Assembly (NCBI GenBank): GCA_017450705.1
Contig: JAFSTC010000014.1
Span: 1-64,000, forward strand
Reading direction: 5' to 3'
Origin: Lentisphaeria bacterium
Lineage (GTDB): Bacteria > Verrucomicrobiota > Lentisphaeria > Victivallales > Victivallaceae
Length of the DNA stretch: 64,000 bases
How positions within the stretch are numbered: position 1 is the stretch's first letter; the number at the start of each line of letters is the position of its first letter. The translations under genes were made by a program, and so were the position numbers. The notes beneath the pieces were generated by a model, which did not search any database, was not told the origin of the DNA, and saw nothing but the letters and a program-made list of their open reading frames with translations. Positions 40,501 to 48,382 of the stretch are shown here, one piece after another.

Positions 40501-41641
40501 GATAAGAGAACTGATTGGCGGGATCCGTGATCCCTTCGCGGAGCATTTTTATCCCGTACGGACCGAACATGAGATTGAAGATCTCGGGGCGGCGGTCCTG
40601 ACGGTATTCGCCGTTCTGGGGGACCAGAAGAACATTCCCGCCGATCTCGAGGTACCGGCGCAGCGCGTTCCGGTAAGCGAGGGTCGTTTCCTCGTAGTCC
40701 GCCTGCCGGAAGCCCCGGTCGAGGGAGAGGATCACGGCATGGTATTTGCACAGCTCCCCGAAGATCTTCTCCTCCGGGACGTTCCCGAAGACCCACGACA
40801 TGCTGTTCGTGGCATGCCCCGTCATGCCGTTCCGCTTCAGCGTGGAGTAAAGACCGAATCTCCGCCAGGCATCCCCGTAACGGAATTCCTCCGAGAAGAA
40901 TCCGATTTTGGGCGTCCGCCCGTTCAGGAAACAGCTGAGCTGTCCCGGAAAATTCATGCCCTCCTCTTTGCCGGCATCGGGCGACCCGGTGCCGTAAACG
41001 AGATCGTCCCCGAGGCAGGCGATGCTGCCGCACGGCAGGTTTTTCTCCCCGATGACGGCCATCGTCATTTTGGCGAGGCGCAGGAAACCTGCGGGGACCA
41101 GGCGGATCCCGTCTTTCCCGCCGCCGTTGGCCGGATTCCGGACATAAGCATCTTTCCCGTCGATGTCGTATTTCGCACACGCCGCGGCGAAGTCGACCAG
41201 CGGGATATCCCGCTCTTTTGCAATTGTTTTCAAAACATCATTTTCTTCGGCGATCCTGACATTCGGCGTCCGGTCCCCGTAGGCTTCTTTCGGGTTCCGG
41301 GCAAAAACAAGGTGTTCGTTGACGTTCGGGATCGTGACGAGGATGACCGGGATTTTTGCCGACTGGAACTGCGAGAGGATGCTTTCGATGCTTTTTTTGT
41401 AGTTTTCCTTCGTGATCTTGCCGCCCTTCCACGCGGCGTCCACGGTGCCGGTCATGACGACGGCAAGTTCTGCCTTTTCCTCGATCGCTTTTTTCGGCTG
41501 TTCCAGGGCGACTCTGGCGGCGGTCACGCCCGGTCTGGCAAGATTGATCACTCTGCTCGCGGCATGGAGCGGAGCCCCCGCGGCGACGAGGACCAGCCCT
41601 GCGAGAAGAACGGCGATGGGGCAGTTGTCGTGAAGGTGCAT
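37517..41641 (-). CDS. Giant secreted protein: degenerate permuted SGNH, GATase-like and PHP-like domains
   Basis: This 1374-residue protein starts MHLHDNCPIAVLLAGL with a signal peptide cut near APLHA; ATG 41641 has AGGAG upstream. Residues 28-240 match an SGNH hydrolase in permuted motif order: block II-like NLARPGVTA (33-41), block III GTVD (65-68), block V DGIR (177-180), then block I GDDL (211-214) in CLGDDLVYGTGSPDAGK. The catalytic Ser, Asn and His are replaced, so it is probably inactive and may bind ligand. Residues about 245-500 resemble a glutamine-amidotransferase/ThuA-like fold (LSLDRGFRQADYEE, IGGNVLLVPQNGEY). Residues about 575-780 resemble a PHP domain (GVHSAFSDGEGTVSEYA). The rest is beta-rich and unassigned. 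It is the last gene of the minus-strand locus led by the GntR-GH38 fusion. Confidence 0.8.
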   Translation of the reverse strand: MHLHDNCPIAVLLAGLVLVAAGAPLHAASRVINLARPGVTAARVALEQPKKAIEEKAELAVVMTGTVDAAWKGGKITKENYKKSIESILSQFQSAKIPVILVTIPNVNEHLVFARNPKEAYGDRTPNVRIAEENDVLKTIAKERDIPLVDFAAACAKYDIDGKDAYVRNPANGGGKDGIRLVPAGFLRLAKMTMAVIGEKNLPCGSIACLGDDLVYGTGSPDAGKEEGMNFPGQLSCFLNGRTPKIGFFSEEFRYGDAWRRFGLYSTLKRNGMTGHATNSMSWVFGNVPEEKIFGELCKYHAVILSLDRGFRQADYEETTLAYRNALRRYLEIGGNVLLVPQNGEYRQDRRPEIFNLMFGPYGIKMLREGITDPANQFSYPGHPFLSVSAPKAPSYLRFFRTGNIVDSPMTKGVKTLFVPEWGCGGMWGTMGLILSREWTPVVFGEKTAKSYVTTAETSKNSLFVREGSLRSAPVLAAWRPYGRGKIAVISCNLMHLSINAHACDWPAVWEKNGDGKTKSDGTLLLMNTFRFLFRDALKNPRIGFYQEPPTTAAKKVKPANFDRVPFPDGSPCVKGLIGVHSAFSDGEGTVSEYAAAARKAGYRFLAFTESLEKLTPEKYAALKKACAAVSDPDFYACPGIEFSEANGLRWAFWGEDVIFPEDHIFNGPRDKVNWWGLYAASCNRRPSALLNYDRLHELGDASNLWWYFRIPVKVCRNGQVLARNLREYLFALNDVRGQGNIVFNGIYSPARLAKEAAACGWNFVYGNVENAKEWLNTKNTFDCGRGYASEGPSISLWQGVNASAAADYEVQQKRQRVRLKFEVSSDAGIRDVKVWDGTEGLFRRFDGRGQKQFSREFAALHDRVHHLVLEVTDLNGKKAVSPEVLIQNPYYAVTRCTDNLNLLGYSTLLMHPPCHQVPVLRDFEDIYSARLDMGKKDTTPIAGIDSGVPFIFKPCADLNISLSTEEGEQPGGSNQLDELNAIRQRYPVNSNEVSILTQDSHRRVHTEKRHRPDRRMTYTYYSFFPLGEDQPIADIRHTTWLMRSRIRPSCRFTRPWLADDDYRGGLMYHRIFLKFKKDVVLKGDMPIHLVSMTSGSDYYSKERGFWDRLVVETPSGIEESSTGTAKAGELKNGGFATVLSTNSTRRILIVPQSVSLSPKFRLAANGTLAVGFGKAGQKFKAGDEVSFFLAVCTCVGTPDTAAYCRKIADRLSDPAAKAAMKRGNQIFTPGFIAFHAENGEVAAELPAFPMICDWPFFIRGVEDNGTAAYYDHAKGVFTFVPVHDRTMYFQMSMEKAASFWGGNLFLSSDRDLKLTPVLYGTADAFLEVHNPTGHEIRAEITSPELAPVYGGKRFSVSVPGGTSCRIPLTPPAK

Positions 41642-41663: not shown

Positions 41664-42968
41664 TCAGATCGTCTTGCGGTGCACGATGCCCTGCTGGGAC
41701 ATCGCTTCGGCCTGAAGCGATTTGACGTCGATCTCCCGCGTTTTCCATTTTCCTTTGGCGAGAACCGCCGCGAGGCCGCAGATCTCTCCGACGGCGATAC
41801 AGGTCCCGTTGATCCTCGAAGAGGAAAACGCATCATGGGTCGCGGAGATGGGGCGGCCCGCGATCAGCAGATTGTCCACGCCCTGCGGCAGGAGGCAGCG
41901 GAAGGGGATCCCGTAACTCTTTTGGAGACAGAAGTGGGGCATCGGCGTCTCTCCGTGGATCCTGTCCGGGACATGGATGTCGATCCCCCACCCGCCGCGG
42001 GCGATCTCGTCGTCGAAATCCCGTCCCTCGATCACGTCCTCTTCGGTCAGGGTGTAGGCGCCCGCGATCCGGCGCGTTTCCCGGATCCCCGGCTGCATGG
42101 CGGTTTGAGCGACGTAGCAATTTTGGAATCCCGGCAGGTTTTTCCGGAAGAATTCGGCGATCTCCAGCGCCTGTTCCATGCCCTCTTTCCGGATCCGCGC
42201 CTGCCCTTCGTGGGTCAGCGGGGCGCAGTTCAAAATATGCGTCATGTTGACGGCGGCTTCTCCGTTGGTCCCGGGGAGATACGTGATCACCGTGTGATTG
42301 GTGGGCGTCATGTGCGGCTGTTTTTGCCACAACGCCGTCGCCTCGGTCATTTTGCGGGGGGCTTTTGTCATGTCGATCCCCGCGAGTTTGAAGGTGAGGG
42401 AACTGGACTGGACTTTCCCGTCCGTGTCGCGGCCGTACCGCACCGGACACCCCGCAAAATATGCCAGGTCGGCGTCGCCCGTGTCATCGATAAAGAAGGG
42501 CGCTTCCCACGCCTCCAGCCCCTGCTTCGAGGCCGTGACGATGTAGGAGATATCCCGCCGTTCCCGCCGCGCGGAGATCAGCGTGGTCTGAAGCAGGATC
42601 CTCACCCCGGCTTCCTGAAGCATCCGGAAGAGAACAAGATCCAGTTTCTCCGGATCGACCCGGTACGCCCAGCCGCCGTCCCGGGGCTGACTGCCGCCGA
42701 CCGCCTCCAGACGGCGGATCATTTCGCGCAGGAACAGGCCGTCCACCGTGATCTCCGAGTCCAGCCGGAGACCGGAGATGATCCCGAGTATCCCCGAGAC
42801 CGGGACGCCGCCGAGTTTGTGATAGTGCTCGATCAGCAGGACGTCCAACCCTCTTCGGGCGGCATTCCAAGCGGCGGCGCATCCGCTCAACCCGGCTCCG
42901 CATACGATCAAGTCGCACGCTCCCGAGACCGGGACCGTTTCCCGGGGAAATTTGACGGATTTTCTCAC
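41664..42968 (-). CDS. FAD-dependent oxidoreductase
   Basis: This 434-residue protein belongs to the FAD_oxidored type: a dinucleotide-binding [17 protein letters not shown] near residues 24-40, [11 protein letters not shown], and an FAD-contacting segment [25 protein letters not shown] near the C-terminus, shown here in parts. No signal peptide is present. A GTG start at 42968 overlaps the pseudopilin stop (GTGA) and has AAGGA upstream, so translation is coupled; a longer frame starting at 43205 would run through the pseudopilin gene out of frame. Related proteins recur in glycan loci of this phylum and may oxidise sugar alcohols or side chains; the substrate is inferred only. Confidence 0.87.
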
Positions 42969-43729
42969 AGGGCCGTTCCTTTGGCGTTCCAGAAGTAGTC
43001 GTTGGTCCGGATGTCCTGACCGGTTTGCAACGCCCGCAGCCCCCGCGGATCCGTGTTCTTTATCGACTCCATATGGCCGTCGACGAACAGGGTATTGGCC
43101 GCCTGGCTGTGCCGGAAATCCGGTTCCGCGCCTTCGCTGTCCCGGTATTTTTTGCGGCTGGTCCAGTAGCTCCCCGTCCCGTAATTGTAGGCTGCTCCGG
43201 TCCACCCGTCGATCAAATACATCGCTCGGCCCGCTTGCGTGATCTGATTCACCTTGTAGTAGAAACAGGTCCCGTAGACATCTCCCGCCGCATTCGTCCC
43301 GTTGTAATCCGGGCTCTGGGTGATGCCCAGATTCAAATAGTAGCTGATATTCTTTTCACGCCTGTCCTGAGGACACTGCATCATGCCGCGCTTTTCGGAG
43401 CCGTTGTTTTTCTTGCCGAAGTTGCCGGACATATATCCCTTTTCGAACAGGATCTTCGTCCAGGGGTCGATCGCGCTTGCCGAAACTTTTATGCCCGCAT
43501 TCATGAGCCACCCCTGGGAATCGTTGGAGTACATCATGAAATTCGTTCCCCACTGCTTCATCTGCGAGGTGCAGTTGATCGCGCCCGCCCGTTCTCTCGC
43601 CTGCTGCAGCGCGGGCATCAGCATCGCCGCCAAAATCGCGATGATCGCTATAACGACAAGAAGTTCGATCAATGTGAATTTCGGATCCGCATTTGACGGA
43701 CGACACGGCGAACGGTCGTTTTTTTCCAT
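42965..43729 (-). CDS. Pseudopilin-like protein with H-X9-DG motif, locus 3
   Basis: This 254-residue protein starts [17 protein letters not shown]. The pilin-type signal has Phe18 and Glu22 (+5) in [20 protein letters not shown] with Lys at -1. The C-terminal [15 protein letters not shown] is an exact H-X9-DG signature. ATG 43729 follows AGGAAAAG; 43777 is a weaker start. It lies 44 bp after the permuted SGNH hydrolase and its TGA overlaps the next gene's GTG. It is the third pseudopilin in the window embedded in a regulated enzyme locus, with one per locus. Confidence 0.88.
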
Positions 43730-43773
43730 GTTTCTTTTCCTGTCGCGTGTTCTTGTTTGAAGTGATCGGCGGT

Positions 43774-44502
43774 TCATTTTGTTTCATCCTTTCCGTTTGC
43801 TGCCGTCAAATATTTTTTGAGTTGTCCGGGATACGTCGTTCCTGAAATTTTTCCGGCATCGGGGCTGCCGACGCCGTAGGTCAGACTGTCGCCGATACAC
43901 AGGATCTTTTTCGGCAAATATCCTGCCTGCCGGATCGTATCGGCCACGCATTCCGCAAGCGCGGCGTAGCCCTCCTCCGTAAGGTGGATCCCGTCGGCGA
44001 CGCCGGAATTTTCCGGGAGGCGAAGCAGTGATCTTTTCCCCTCACATCCCCTTTTCATGACGACGGCATGAAGATCCGCGAGGGGCAATTTCTTCGCTTC
44101 CGCGGCTTGTTTCAATATCGCATTGAACTTGAGGATCCGTTCGTTGGGAAGTTTTTCGCCGAAAACTTCTTTGCCGTGCCGCCGAAAAAGACAGGCCTCG
44201 TTGCAGGGAGGGAGCGTGACGAGGATCAGCCTGCTTTGCGCTCCGAGGATCTCTTTTACGGCAAGATCCAAGGTTTTGAGAAACGCTTCCTGCGAGGACA
44301 GAACTTTGGAATTGCAGGCATCGTTCGTTCCGAAAAGCATCACGGTCACGTCCGGTTTCACTTCCAGCGCATTCCGGAGCCATTTTTCGTTCACGGAGAC
44401 AAATGGTTTCCCCGGAACGCTCCGGACGAAGACCTGAACGTCTTCCGCCGCAAATGCGCCCGCCAGGGCCGCCGCCATGGAAAACAGGAGGGTTTTCTTC
44501 AT
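43774..44502 (-). CDS. Circularly permuted SGNH hydrolase, secreted
   Basis: This 242-residue protein has a signal peptide ([19 protein letters not shown]). Motif order is block II-like SVPGKPF (Gly31), block III GTND (Asn60), block V DGIH (Asp170, His173), then block I GDSL (Ser206) in [17 protein letters not shown] close to the C-terminus. Canonical SGNH enzymes have block I first. Joining the C-terminal segment ahead of residue 21 gives a standard SGNH sequence, so the fold is probably intact with new termini and a complete catalytic set. The ATG at 44502 is placed by the signal peptide; its ribosome-binding site is weak. The last gene of the operon carries a degenerate copy of the same permuted domain. 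Confidence 0.85.
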
Positions 44503-44589: not shown

Positions 44590-47208
44590 TCACCGGATGA
44601 GAATGTTTTTGATCTCGAAGGGCTTGAACTTCAACTCGGGGGAGGGGAGGGCCTTCCCGTCATTTCCCAACCCGTCGGTCTCGAACAGGGTTTTGCCTTC
44701 GGCCAGCGCCCCGGCGAGGGTCGTCGTGAGCGGGAGACCGCGCGTCTCGTAAACGCGGAGGAACAGTCCCTTCTTCAAGTTGCGGACCGAGGAGACCGCC
44801 GCGCCGGGGAGCCTGAGTTGAGACCCCTCCGGCAGGGAGCCCGTCAGCACCTGGACGGGGCGGTTCAGCAGAGCGCCCAGTTCATAAGCCTTGATCATAT
44901 CCATTGGACTATGCGCCCGGAAAGCGAAACGGTAATGATGCAAGCCGTTGTCGTAGGAGCCCGGCTGGGGCGTCAACTGACCGTCGCGGGTGGCGGTCCC
45001 GCTCCGCAGGAGGGCAACGGTGATGACGCCGTTGCTCAACTGGTGTCCGGGCGTTCCGGTGTTGGCGACCGTAAGGCCCATGGAATAATCGGAAAGGTTG
45101 ACCCAGTTCAGCGCGGGCCAGTCCCCCTTGGCTTCCCGGTAATCTCCTGAGGTCTGAAGCTGCTGCAGCGTGGATTCGTACTTTTCGTCCACCTCGAAAT
45201 AGGGCTTCCGGACCAGCGCGGAAAAGGGCGTCTCGTAGGTCCCGGCGGCCTTCAGGGGATCCACCGCTGTGGGGAAGCAAATGGAGACTTTGGTGTTGCA
45301 TCCCGTCCAGTCGAGTTCGAGATCCAGTGTGAAATAGTCCAGTTCGTTGTAAAACCGGTACTCTTTGCGGAAGGCGAGCGCGCCGAACCCCGGCCAATGG
45401 GGCCCGAGATTGCCGGAGGCGGCCGGTCCGGGAAGCACGTTCCCCTCCGTCACGACGCGGCGGAAGACACCTCCCGCTTCGCAGAGCACGACCTTTTCCC
45501 GGAAAAACTCCAGGGGGATCGGCAGCTGCCAGAAATCCTCCGACCACATGGAGCCGGTGTCCCGCTGGACGCGCAGCGCTCCGAAGCCGTCGGCGGAAAA
45601 AACGTTTTTCCCGTTCAGGTTCCGGATCACGGGAGAGGGCCCGAAGAAATCGGCGTGGAAATATTTCGTGTCGAAAACGGGCTCGCAGGGCCTGGCCGCG
45701 GCGGCTTTCCCCGTTTTTTTGAACGTCTTGATCCCGAAGGAAGGCAGATCGACGGTGTAAACGGCCAGATCTCCCGCTTTCTGGGCCGCGACGCCCTCCG
45801 GGACGACCGGCGACGTGACCAGCTGGGGCCCCTCCGCGGTCGAAAAACTGCAGAGAGAATATCCCTTGCCCGGGATCGGATCGGATTTTGCGCCTTGCGC
45901 CGTTTCCAGGTATTTGTCGATCTCCGGAGTGCAGGCGTCGACGTGACAGCCGCATGCGGCGTCGTGGAACTGGGCCGAAAGAAGCGAACGCCATTCTTTG
46001 CGGAACTCGTTTTCTTTGCCGAGGACGGCGTTGAGGTATTCGGCGCGGAACAGAGCCGATTCCGCCTGGCGGATCGCTTGCTTCGTGCCGATCCGCGTCG
46101 TGTAGCAGCCGGTGAAGACCGGATTGAATTCGCCGCGGTAGTCCGGCAGATCGTCCAAGGAAGCGTCGGCGAGATACCGGTGACAGGAGCCCGGGACGAT
46201 CTGCTTGCCCCCCAGCCCGTTCGCCATGGCGAGGATGCTGAAAATGCTCTCCTGAAACGTGCCTTCTTCGGTGGAGTAGGAGAGCAGAACGGTCCCCGGC
46301 AGCTGTTTCGCCGCCAGAATGTTTTTCAGGAGCCGGGTCTCCCCGGTCTGCACCAGAGGGACGTTCAATTCATACCCGAGGTGGGTGATCTCGGCGGTAT
46401 TGCGGAAAACGGTGACGCCTCCGTTGCCGGCTAAAGATTCCCAGCGGAAAAGATCGGCTTGTGCGATTTCCTGGGGCTGATTGGGCGTCCGGCCGGGAGA
46501 GAGGTACCGGATGCCGCACTGCATCAAAATCTGCGGCAGCTGGGCGCACATGCCGAAGGCATCGTTGAAGCGGGCAAGATCGCTGGAGCGGCCGAGAGTT
46601 TCCCGATACCAGGCAAGTCCCTGCTCCAGATTGCGGAAGATCGATTCGCCGCTGACCATATTGAGGTCCGGGATGCTGTAAACCGAGCACAGTTCCAGGC
46701 GGCCTTCCGCCGCAAGTTTCTTTGCCGTTGTCAGGAGCTCCGGATGCTGTTCGAAAAACGCGCGTCCGATCTCCGCCTGCTCCAGCTGGAAGGAAACGCC
46801 GTCATACGCGTCGGCATACCGGAACTCGGTGAGCAGCTGTTCTTCGCGTATCTTTTTGTATTCTGATGTCGGGCGCCGCCAGATCAGATCGGAATGGTGA
46901 CAGAAATAGAGGTAGGCTTTTCCCGGCCCCGCTCCCGTTCCCTGTTGCTGACGATGGGGTTCGGCAATGGCGGAAGCGTGGGGAGAAACGTAGAACCCGG
47001 AGGCGCCGCGGCACTCGACATAGCCGTTGCCCATCAATTCCTTGAGCGCATTTTGAATGACGGAGAGACTGACGTCGAACCGGGCGGACATTTCGCGCAC
47101 GGTCGCCAGGCGCTCCCCCGGAGCGATGACGCCCTCCCGGATCAGTTTCATGATCTCCCGAACGACCTGATCCCGCTTGGGAGGCTTTGCTTTCAGTGAT
47201 TCTTTCAT
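44590..47208 (-). CDS. GntR helix-turn-helix fused to a GH38 alpha-mannosidase-like enzyme
   Basis: This 872-residue protein is one uninterrupted frame. Residues 12-76 form a GntR winged helix (DQVVREIMKLIREGVIAPGE; MSARFDVSLSVIQNALKELM). Residues 97-872 form a GH38-type enzyme with the metal-site opening CHHSDLIW (His105, Asp107), nucleophile-type Asp216 in NDAFG, YSTEEG (311-316) and QFHDAACG (His415, Asp416), followed by the long beta C-terminal domain. Catalytic positions are largely kept, so it may both cleave or bind a mannoside and control transcription. No signal peptide, as expected for a DNA-binding protein. ATG 47208 has GGAG nine bases upstream; a TTG nine bases earlier is possible. 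It has a strong promoter and leads the locus. Confidence 0.88.
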   Translation of the reverse strand: MKESLKAKPPKRDQVVREIMKLIREGVIAPGERLATVREMSARFDVSLSVIQNALKELMGNGYVECRGASGFYVSPHASAIAEPHRQQQGTGAGPGKAYLYFCHHSDLIWRRPTSEYKKIREEQLLTEFRYADAYDGVSFQLEQAEIGRAFFEQHPELLTTAKKLAAEGRLELCSVYSIPDLNMVSGESIFRNLEQGLAWYRETLGRSSDLARFNDAFGMCAQLPQILMQCGIRYLSPGRTPNQPQEIAQADLFRWESLAGNGGVTVFRNTAEITHLGYELNVPLVQTGETRLLKNILAAKQLPGTVLLSYSTEEGTFQESIFSILAMANGLGGKQIVPGSCHRYLADASLDDLPDYRGEFNPVFTGCYTTRIGTKQAIRQAESALFRAEYLNAVLGKENEFRKEWRSLLSAQFHDAACGCHVDACTPEIDKYLETAQGAKSDPIPGKGYSLCSFSTAEGPQLVTSPVVPEGVAAQKAGDLAVYTVDLPSFGIKTFKKTGKAAAARPCEPVFDTKYFHADFFGPSPVIRNLNGKNVFSADGFGALRVQRDTGSMWSEDFWQLPIPLEFFREKVVLCEAGGVFRRVVTEGNVLPGPAASGNLGPHWPGFGALAFRKEYRFYNELDYFTLDLELDWTGCNTKVSICFPTAVDPLKAAGTYETPFSALVRKPYFEVDEKYESTLQQLQTSGDYREAKGDWPALNWVNLSDYSMGLTVANTGTPGHQLSNGVITVALLRSGTATRDGQLTPQPGSYDNGLHHYRFAFRAHSPMDMIKAYELGALLNRPVQVLTGSLPEGSQLRLPGAAVSSVRNLKKGLFLRVYETRGLPLTTTLAGALAEGKTLFETDGLGNDGKALPSPELKFKPFEIKNILIR

Positions 47209-47245
47209 GGGGCGCAACTCCAGTGTTTCTGTGGATCTTGGAGCA

Positions 47246-47535: not shown

Positions 47536-47844
47536 CTTTCAAAAAAGCGCTGTATTGGGGCTGATCGGGAAAAACGTGAGAATTAGCAAAAATCTCGAAT
47601 TGCCCCCCGCTGGGGTCCAACGGCAGCGCAAGTTATTCGAAATAAGCTTGCATTCAACGCGTTGCGGCGATATATTCCAGTACACTTATCGAACATTTAT
47701 TATAAAAAAATCGATAGGTTATTCGACCTCGGCGCTCTTCGGGTAGGTGTAGGGCGATTTCAGGCAAGACGGCAGGCGAATAGGTGAAGTTTGTTGAGGG
47801 GCAGCGGGTCAGTTCTTGATTTGACTTGGGGGAAGGGCAAAAAA
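47536..47844. other. Gene-free AT-rich spacer
   Basis: Between the palindromic element and the tRNA-linked array I see no gene, promoter of quality or hairpin. Bases about 47640-47730 are distinctly AT-rich (for example AACATTTATTATAAAAAAATCG) compared with the surrounding GC-rich DNA, which hints at foreign or decayed sequence. Confidence 0.5.
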
Positions 47845-48307
47845 ATGGCAGTCCCGCAAGGATTCGACGAGGAGGGGCGAAGCCGCGACGAAGAGCCGCC
47901 GGTGGAGCCGGCGGCAACCTCCGCCCCGAAGACGTGCGGGACGGGAGATTTTTCCTCCCCGTCAGGGGGGAAGCCGGAGGCGGGGAAAAAGGGAAACGCA
48001 GTTTTCGTTTTGCCTTGCCGACGGCGGAGGAGCGCGTCAGAGGCGCGCGGGGGAAATCGATTTTTTTGCAAAAAAATGGCAGTCCCGTAAGGATTCGACG
48101 AGGAGCGCCGAAGGCGCGACGAAGAGCCGCCGGGCGTGCCCGGCGGCAACCTCCGCCCCGAAGACTTGCGAGGGAAGAGATTTTTCCTCCCCGTTCCGGG
48201 GAGAAGCGGGAGGCGGGTCAAAAGGGAAACGCAGTTTTCATTTTGACTTGCCGACAGCGAGAGAGCGCGTCGCAGACGCGCGTGAAAAATCGTTTTATTG
48301 CAAAAAA
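47845..48307 (-). repeat. Tandem array of two 231/232-bp units carrying tRNA-Gln 3' ends
   Basis: Units start at 47845 and 48076, and the third start, 48308, is the real tRNA. Each unit opens with ATGGCAGTCCCG(C/T)AAGGATTCGA, the reverse complement of the tRNA-Gln 3' acceptor and T-arm including CCA. About 205 bp of GC-rich, hairpin-forming sequence follows and ends in TTTTTTTGCAAAAAAA or a variant. The array lies immediately 3' of the tRNA in its direction of transcription. Confidence 0.88.
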
Positions 48308-48308
48308 A

Positions 48309-48382
48309 TGGCAGTCCCGCAAGGATTCGAACCTCGACAAAGTGAACCAGAATCACTTGTGCTACCGTTACACCACGGGACT
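48309..48382 (-). tRNA. tRNA-Gln (anticodon CTG), CCA encoded
   Basis: The minus-strand transcript folds as a full cloverleaf: acceptor AGTCCCG/CGGGACT with discriminator G and encoded CCA, D-loop containing GGTAGC, anticodon stem AGTGA/TCACT with loop TTCTGGT (anticodon CTG) and T-arm with GGTTCGAATCC. A TATATT -10 lies upstream (about 48395-48400 read on the minus strand). A T8 run follows the 3' end and could terminate the transcript. Confidence 0.94.

Follow-up and report, generated by a model that had tools for sequence, protein, structure and literature searches.

The protein encoded at 43774-44502 (P0001) of the window, by which we mean the whole 64,000-nucleotide stretch of DNA analysed, is read with a probability of about 0.77 as a functional, exported SGNH serine esterase that is circularly permuted, block I being placed after block V. 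Block I comprises strand 1, helix 1 and the predicted nucleophilic serine. In the proposed mechanism, Ser206-His173-Asp170 would attack the ester, the oxyanion would be held by the NH of Ser206, the NH of Gly31 and Asn60, and the acyl-enzyme would be resolved by water. The gene and its parts are:

43774..44502, minus strand: permuted SGNH hydrolase gene (P0001), 242 amino acids plus stop
44446..44502, minus strand: residues 1-19, hydrophobic N-terminus, probable signal peptide by its sequence (modelled as helix 3-15 at low confidence)
43915..44445, minus strand: core, residues 20-196, with blocks II, III and V; strands 23-28, 52-56 and 91-95
44410..44412, minus strand: Gly31, oxyanion-hole glycine of block II (SVPGKPF); G in 75/76 aligned members
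44323..44325, minus strand: Asn60, block III (GTND); N in 75/76
43984..43995, minus strand: Asp170-Gly-Ile-His173, block V (DGIH); D in 76/76, H in 75/76
43777..43914, minus strand: C-terminal block I, residues 197-242, with strand 199-204, the GDSL serine, then helix 224-235
43885..43887, minus strand: Ser206, predicted nucleophile (GDSL); S in 75/76

Translation of 43774-44502 on the minus strand confirmed Ser206, Gly31, Asn60, Asp170 and His173 as numbered in the preliminary description. The blocks run II-III-V-I (G-N-DH-S) and the chain ends one helix after block I, so that the S-G-N-H order of the canonical SGNH superfamily is absent. P0001 matched the Pfam model Lipase_GDSL_2 (PF13472) with 69.7 bits (curated cut-off 32.9, E 5.9e-19), with the N-terminal part of the profile, which holds block I, left unpaired upstream of block II. 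Only a part of such proteins is matched by the Pfam model, so that the unusual order of their blocks is easily overlooked. Ahead of block II, P0001 has VRS in place of the usual N-x-G (N in 70/76 and G in 73/76 members), and because this motif is lost its own activity may differ from that of its relatives.

We rescored three members against Lipase_GDSL_2 after shifting the block I segment to the front. Scores rose from 65.3 to 77.7, from 75.9 to 92.0 and from 94.2 to 110.3 bits (+12.4, +16.1 and +16.1), and profile coverage was extended from 34/35-178 to 1-178 of 178 positions. In a canonical control from the same genome, shifting block I to the end lowered the score from 80.5 to 67.9 bits (−12.6), with the loss of profile positions 1-35. 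The earlier proposal that moving block I to the front gives a canonical arrangement was thus borne out, a partial hit becoming complete on rotation.

A 2022 review (PMC9487903) describes 16 families of the SGNH superfamily, among which AlgX and DHHW have undergone circular permutation to the order H-S-G-N; PMC4148444 (AlgX/AlgJ), PMC5697884 (DHHW) and PMC10302187 (WssI) agree. The P0001 family shares its predicted fold, catalytic residues, DxxH and GDS with canonical Lipase_GDSL_2 proteins (PF13472; 1yzf, 3p94), but has the order G-N-H-S where these have S-G-N-H. The AlgX, AlgJ and WssI O-acetyltransferases have a likewise circularly permuted SGNH fold, yet their cut lies between blocks III and V (H-S-G-N), whereas that of the P0001 family lies between I and II; AlgX and AlgJ are described with DxH, GTSYS and Tyr for Asn, and WssI with Asp for Asn, while the P0001 family has DxxH and GDS and keeps the Asn. 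DHHW proteins, represented by PatB1 of B. cereus, are also permuted, as in the P0001 family, but they have the H-S-G-N order and KDS, DXRY and TDHHW motifs that are absent from P0001. Among acetylxylan esterases, AxeA1 (NF042968) gave a weak match to P0001 (E 1.9e-7, far below the model's cut-off), and Axe2 and a CE3 esterase were structural neighbours of the P0001 model; unlike them, the P0001 family has block I at the C-terminus. We place P0001 in the SGNH superfamily as a member of a new permuted type outside AlgX and DHHW, set apart by the motifs and order described for those families. The preliminary description noted no described family with this order, and we found no description of G-N-H-S in the literature searched, which lacked most subscription papers and all preprints, so that one may exist; permuted SGNH families as such, with another break point, are already described (AlgX/AlgJ, WssI and DHHW). 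The P0001 family thus seems to be a branch of this well-known superfamily that has so far gone undescribed. With it, the known permutations of a large, well-studied fold gain a second break point, and the complete hydrolase active site is retained. It offers a natural test of which SGNH loops tolerate cutting and how permutations become fixed.

Known permuted SGNH families are O-acetyltransferases (PMC9487903), which raises the alternative that P0001 transfers acyl groups, as AlgX/AlgJ and DHHW proteins do, rather than hydrolysing esters. We regard this as unlikely: the block III Asn is kept in 75/76 members, whereas AlgX and AlgJ carry Tyr at that position; the AlgX and DHHW models were unmatched by P0001 at E up to 1; and no membrane acyltransferase partner occurred among the 20 neighbours scanned. 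A hydrolase is preferred to a transferase because the block III Asn is kept.

Structure prediction, proposed earlier as a check, gave confident AlphaFold2 models with an SGNH-like core and the strand order expected for a permutation. P0001 reached a pLDDT of 91.5 and a member from Chitinophaga 93.4 (pTM 0.87 each), with pLDDT averaged over ten residues at 92-98 (residues 21-230) and 88-98 (residues 21-240), respectively, and both models had the same strand-helix order, b2-b3-b4-...-b1-a1. In VIA-align, residues 19-196 of the P0001 model were superposed on canonical SGNH structures (1yzf: Z 16.1, 2.3 Å, 157 residues), and most alignments stopped near model residue 191-198, with block I left without a partner. 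A sequential aligner must leave a permuted block I over. Foldseek gave partial overlap only (best TMq 0.53 among the matches listed), and no PDB chain aligned over both the core and a C-terminal block I was seen among 60 chains listed in another search or among the listed Foldseek and VIA-align matches, so that one may still exist. P0001 is predicted to have the SGNH alpha/beta/alpha fold over residues 19-196, and by these models the chain should form a single compact SGNH fold with block I in its usual place. It is quite improbable that activity of the permuted chain depends on a domain-swapped dimer or on a partner, with the sheet of one chain completed by block I of another, since the single-chain models are confident across the core and block I, and the short linker between them would suit an intramolecular strand.

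Separate core and block I HMMs were used to class reading frames of relatives at 97 loci. Among the 102 core-carrying frames, 81 were permuted, 14 canonical and 7 were fragments or had no clean block I assignment. The C-terminal position of block I and the permuted motif order, as first described for P0001, thus recur well beyond it, so the G-N-H-S order is not a matter of chance. P0001 is not a broken gene. The permuted frames ended within 12 residues past the block I segment in 66 of 81 cases, and the other 15 ran on; the three longer frames that were examined all continued into an unrelated module, DUF6259. An additional SGNH domain after block I in homologues, lost only here, had been named earlier as a finding that would speak against the permutation, and none was seen. 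Two proteins had carbohydrate-binding-like domains, by weak matches, ahead of the permuted SGNH domain. Near a permuted gene of Cellulophaga (locus L034), the frame at 2167 (plus strand) encodes a separate SGNH protein of canonical order with GNS for GDS.

All five catalytic residues were intact in 74 of the 76 aligned near-complete permuted members. The sole member without S, N and H was P0002, a neighbour of P0001 in the window, which has D, V and R instead, and in the other exception (L046) the glycine position reads N, possibly through an alignment shift. The P0002 domain, having lost catalytic residues, fits a truncated tandem, in which the C-terminal block I would be all that is left of a further SGNH domain and the protein would be a degraded relic, but this is highly improbable given the 74/76 intact members, the 66/81 frames ending right after block I and the lack of any listed match with block I at both ends.

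Relatives were found at E up to 1e-10 in 10 of 60 genomes. A scan of genome contigs yielded 80 loci, with Lentisphaerota as the best-scoring named matches, and the permuted loci from genome contigs were distributed over Bacteroidota (34), Lentisphaerota (20), Verrucomicrobiota (5), Acidobacteriota (3), Planctomycetota (2), Fibrobacterota (1) and Kiritimatiellota (1). Among the matches listed, a permuted form was present in 38 of 387 genomes of the window's phylum at E up to 1e-25 and in 3 of 296 genomes of Bacteroidota (the phylum of genome G313), the centre genome counted; with only 3 of 296 genomes, the family is patchy in Bacteroidota.

A tree built from the core alone, with block I excluded, comprised 94 permuted and 38 canonical proteins and placed one change of order (SH-aLRT 91); a repeat with three long branches removed and another model again gave one change (SH-aLRT 83). 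These were quick trees with moderate branch support, and their canonical proteins were picked by similarity as a non-random sample. Because the core-only trees need a single change of order, the permutation probably arose once. The preliminary description proposed duplication of an SGNH domain followed by loss of its outer parts; this route is plausible, but the intermediate that it calls for, carrying block I on either side of the core, did not turn up. None occurred in the 97 loci or in 50 further loci searched with the block I and core HMMs. An artificial profile of block I, core and block I (A3) was also run against 296 Bacteroidota genomes and 387 genomes of the window's phylum, with only 6-8 candidates scored per genome, so that rare intermediates may escape: the 76 matches listed in the window's phylum comprised 55 permuted, 19 canonical and 2 core-only proteins and none with both ends, and the 17 listed in Bacteroidota included 3 permuted and none with both ends.

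The genes around P0001 in the window include:

44593..47217, minus strand: upstream gene encoding a GH38 alpha-mannosidase-type protein with a fused GntR HTH
41667..43112, minus strand: FAD_oxidored (PF12831) gene between both permuted SGNH genes
40922..41641, minus strand: second permuted SGNH domain, N-terminal part of the 1378-residue P0002, with D, G, V, D and R at the S, G, N, D and H positions

Gene order is GntR-GH38, P0001, a prepilin-like gene and the PF12831 flavoprotein gene, and proximity to PF12831 was common among relatives. Of 35 permuted genes, 23 (from 20 of 28 genomes) had PF12831 no more than 6 kb away, and 13 had it within 500 bp; none of 30 canonical SGNH genes in the same genomes had it within 6 kb. 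All these counts are among the matches listed, the sample covering 28 of 33 genomes and 150 of 170 PF12831 matches. With each genome represented by its best permuted gene alone, 19 of 28 were linked to PF12831 compared with 0.46 expected at random, a comparison that treats genomes as independent though they are related. PF12831 was also beside none of 10 canonical loci of other phyla, which are a poor control compared with the 0 of 30 from the same genomes. In the window's own class the linkage is weak, with 5 of 26 permuted genes linked across 15 genomes, 3 of these in the window's genome, so that for this class we propose the link in the window's genome only. One contig (G328:C59, from the genome of locus L054) carries three consecutive PF12831 matches in a single 1433-residue frame.

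Neighbours at the Bacteroidota loci included GH95, GH97, GH20, sulfatases, SASA acetylesterases and a 3-keto-disaccharide hydrolase, together with a heparinase-like protein and CstA transporters. Because glycosidases, sulfatases, another acetylesterase and the PF12831 flavoprotein lie nearby, removal of O-acyl groups, most likely O-acetyl, from glycans is suggested, and P0001 is best read as likely an exported enzyme of glycan-degradation operons that hydrolyses O-acyl, probably O-acetyl, esters of glycans or oligosaccharides. The recurrent PF12831 neighbour is a testable lead to an unassigned polysaccharide-degradation step in Bacteroidota and their relatives; the literature on DUF6259 and PF12831 that we searched held no substrate lead. 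More tentatively, and at somewhat less than even odds, a single permutation with its cut between I and II may have founded a separate family of G-N-H-S esterases in at least 7 bacterial phyla, whose members would act with a PF12831 flavoprotein to oxidise and deacylate glycans in a step of their breakdown that has yet to be described.

The P0002 gene (37517-41653, minus strand; 1378 residues) opens with the catalytically degenerate permuted domain, which from its sequence is a probable pseudo-enzyme domain, and further downstream in the protein is a CehA/McbA/PHP-like stretch by a weak match. Permuted SGNH copies number four in the window's genome, two of them on other contigs within frames of 1156 and 1193 residues.

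The upstream gene at 44593-47217 (minus strand) is a single frame with a GntR-type HTH and GH38 N-terminal, middle and C-terminal domains. The joining of a transcription-factor domain to a glycosidase-like protein seems unusual. In the prepilin-like gene (42965-43777, minus strand) the N_methyl motif scored slightly below the Pfam cut-off, and the first ATG at which it could begin overlaps the P0001 stop codon. At 47830-48382, copies of a 38-nt unit recur at 231-232 bp spacing together with copies of 73- and 127-nt units, and the last 38-nt copy overlaps a tRNA-Gln gene (48309-48382, minus strand); these repeats are perhaps partial duplications of the tRNA region.
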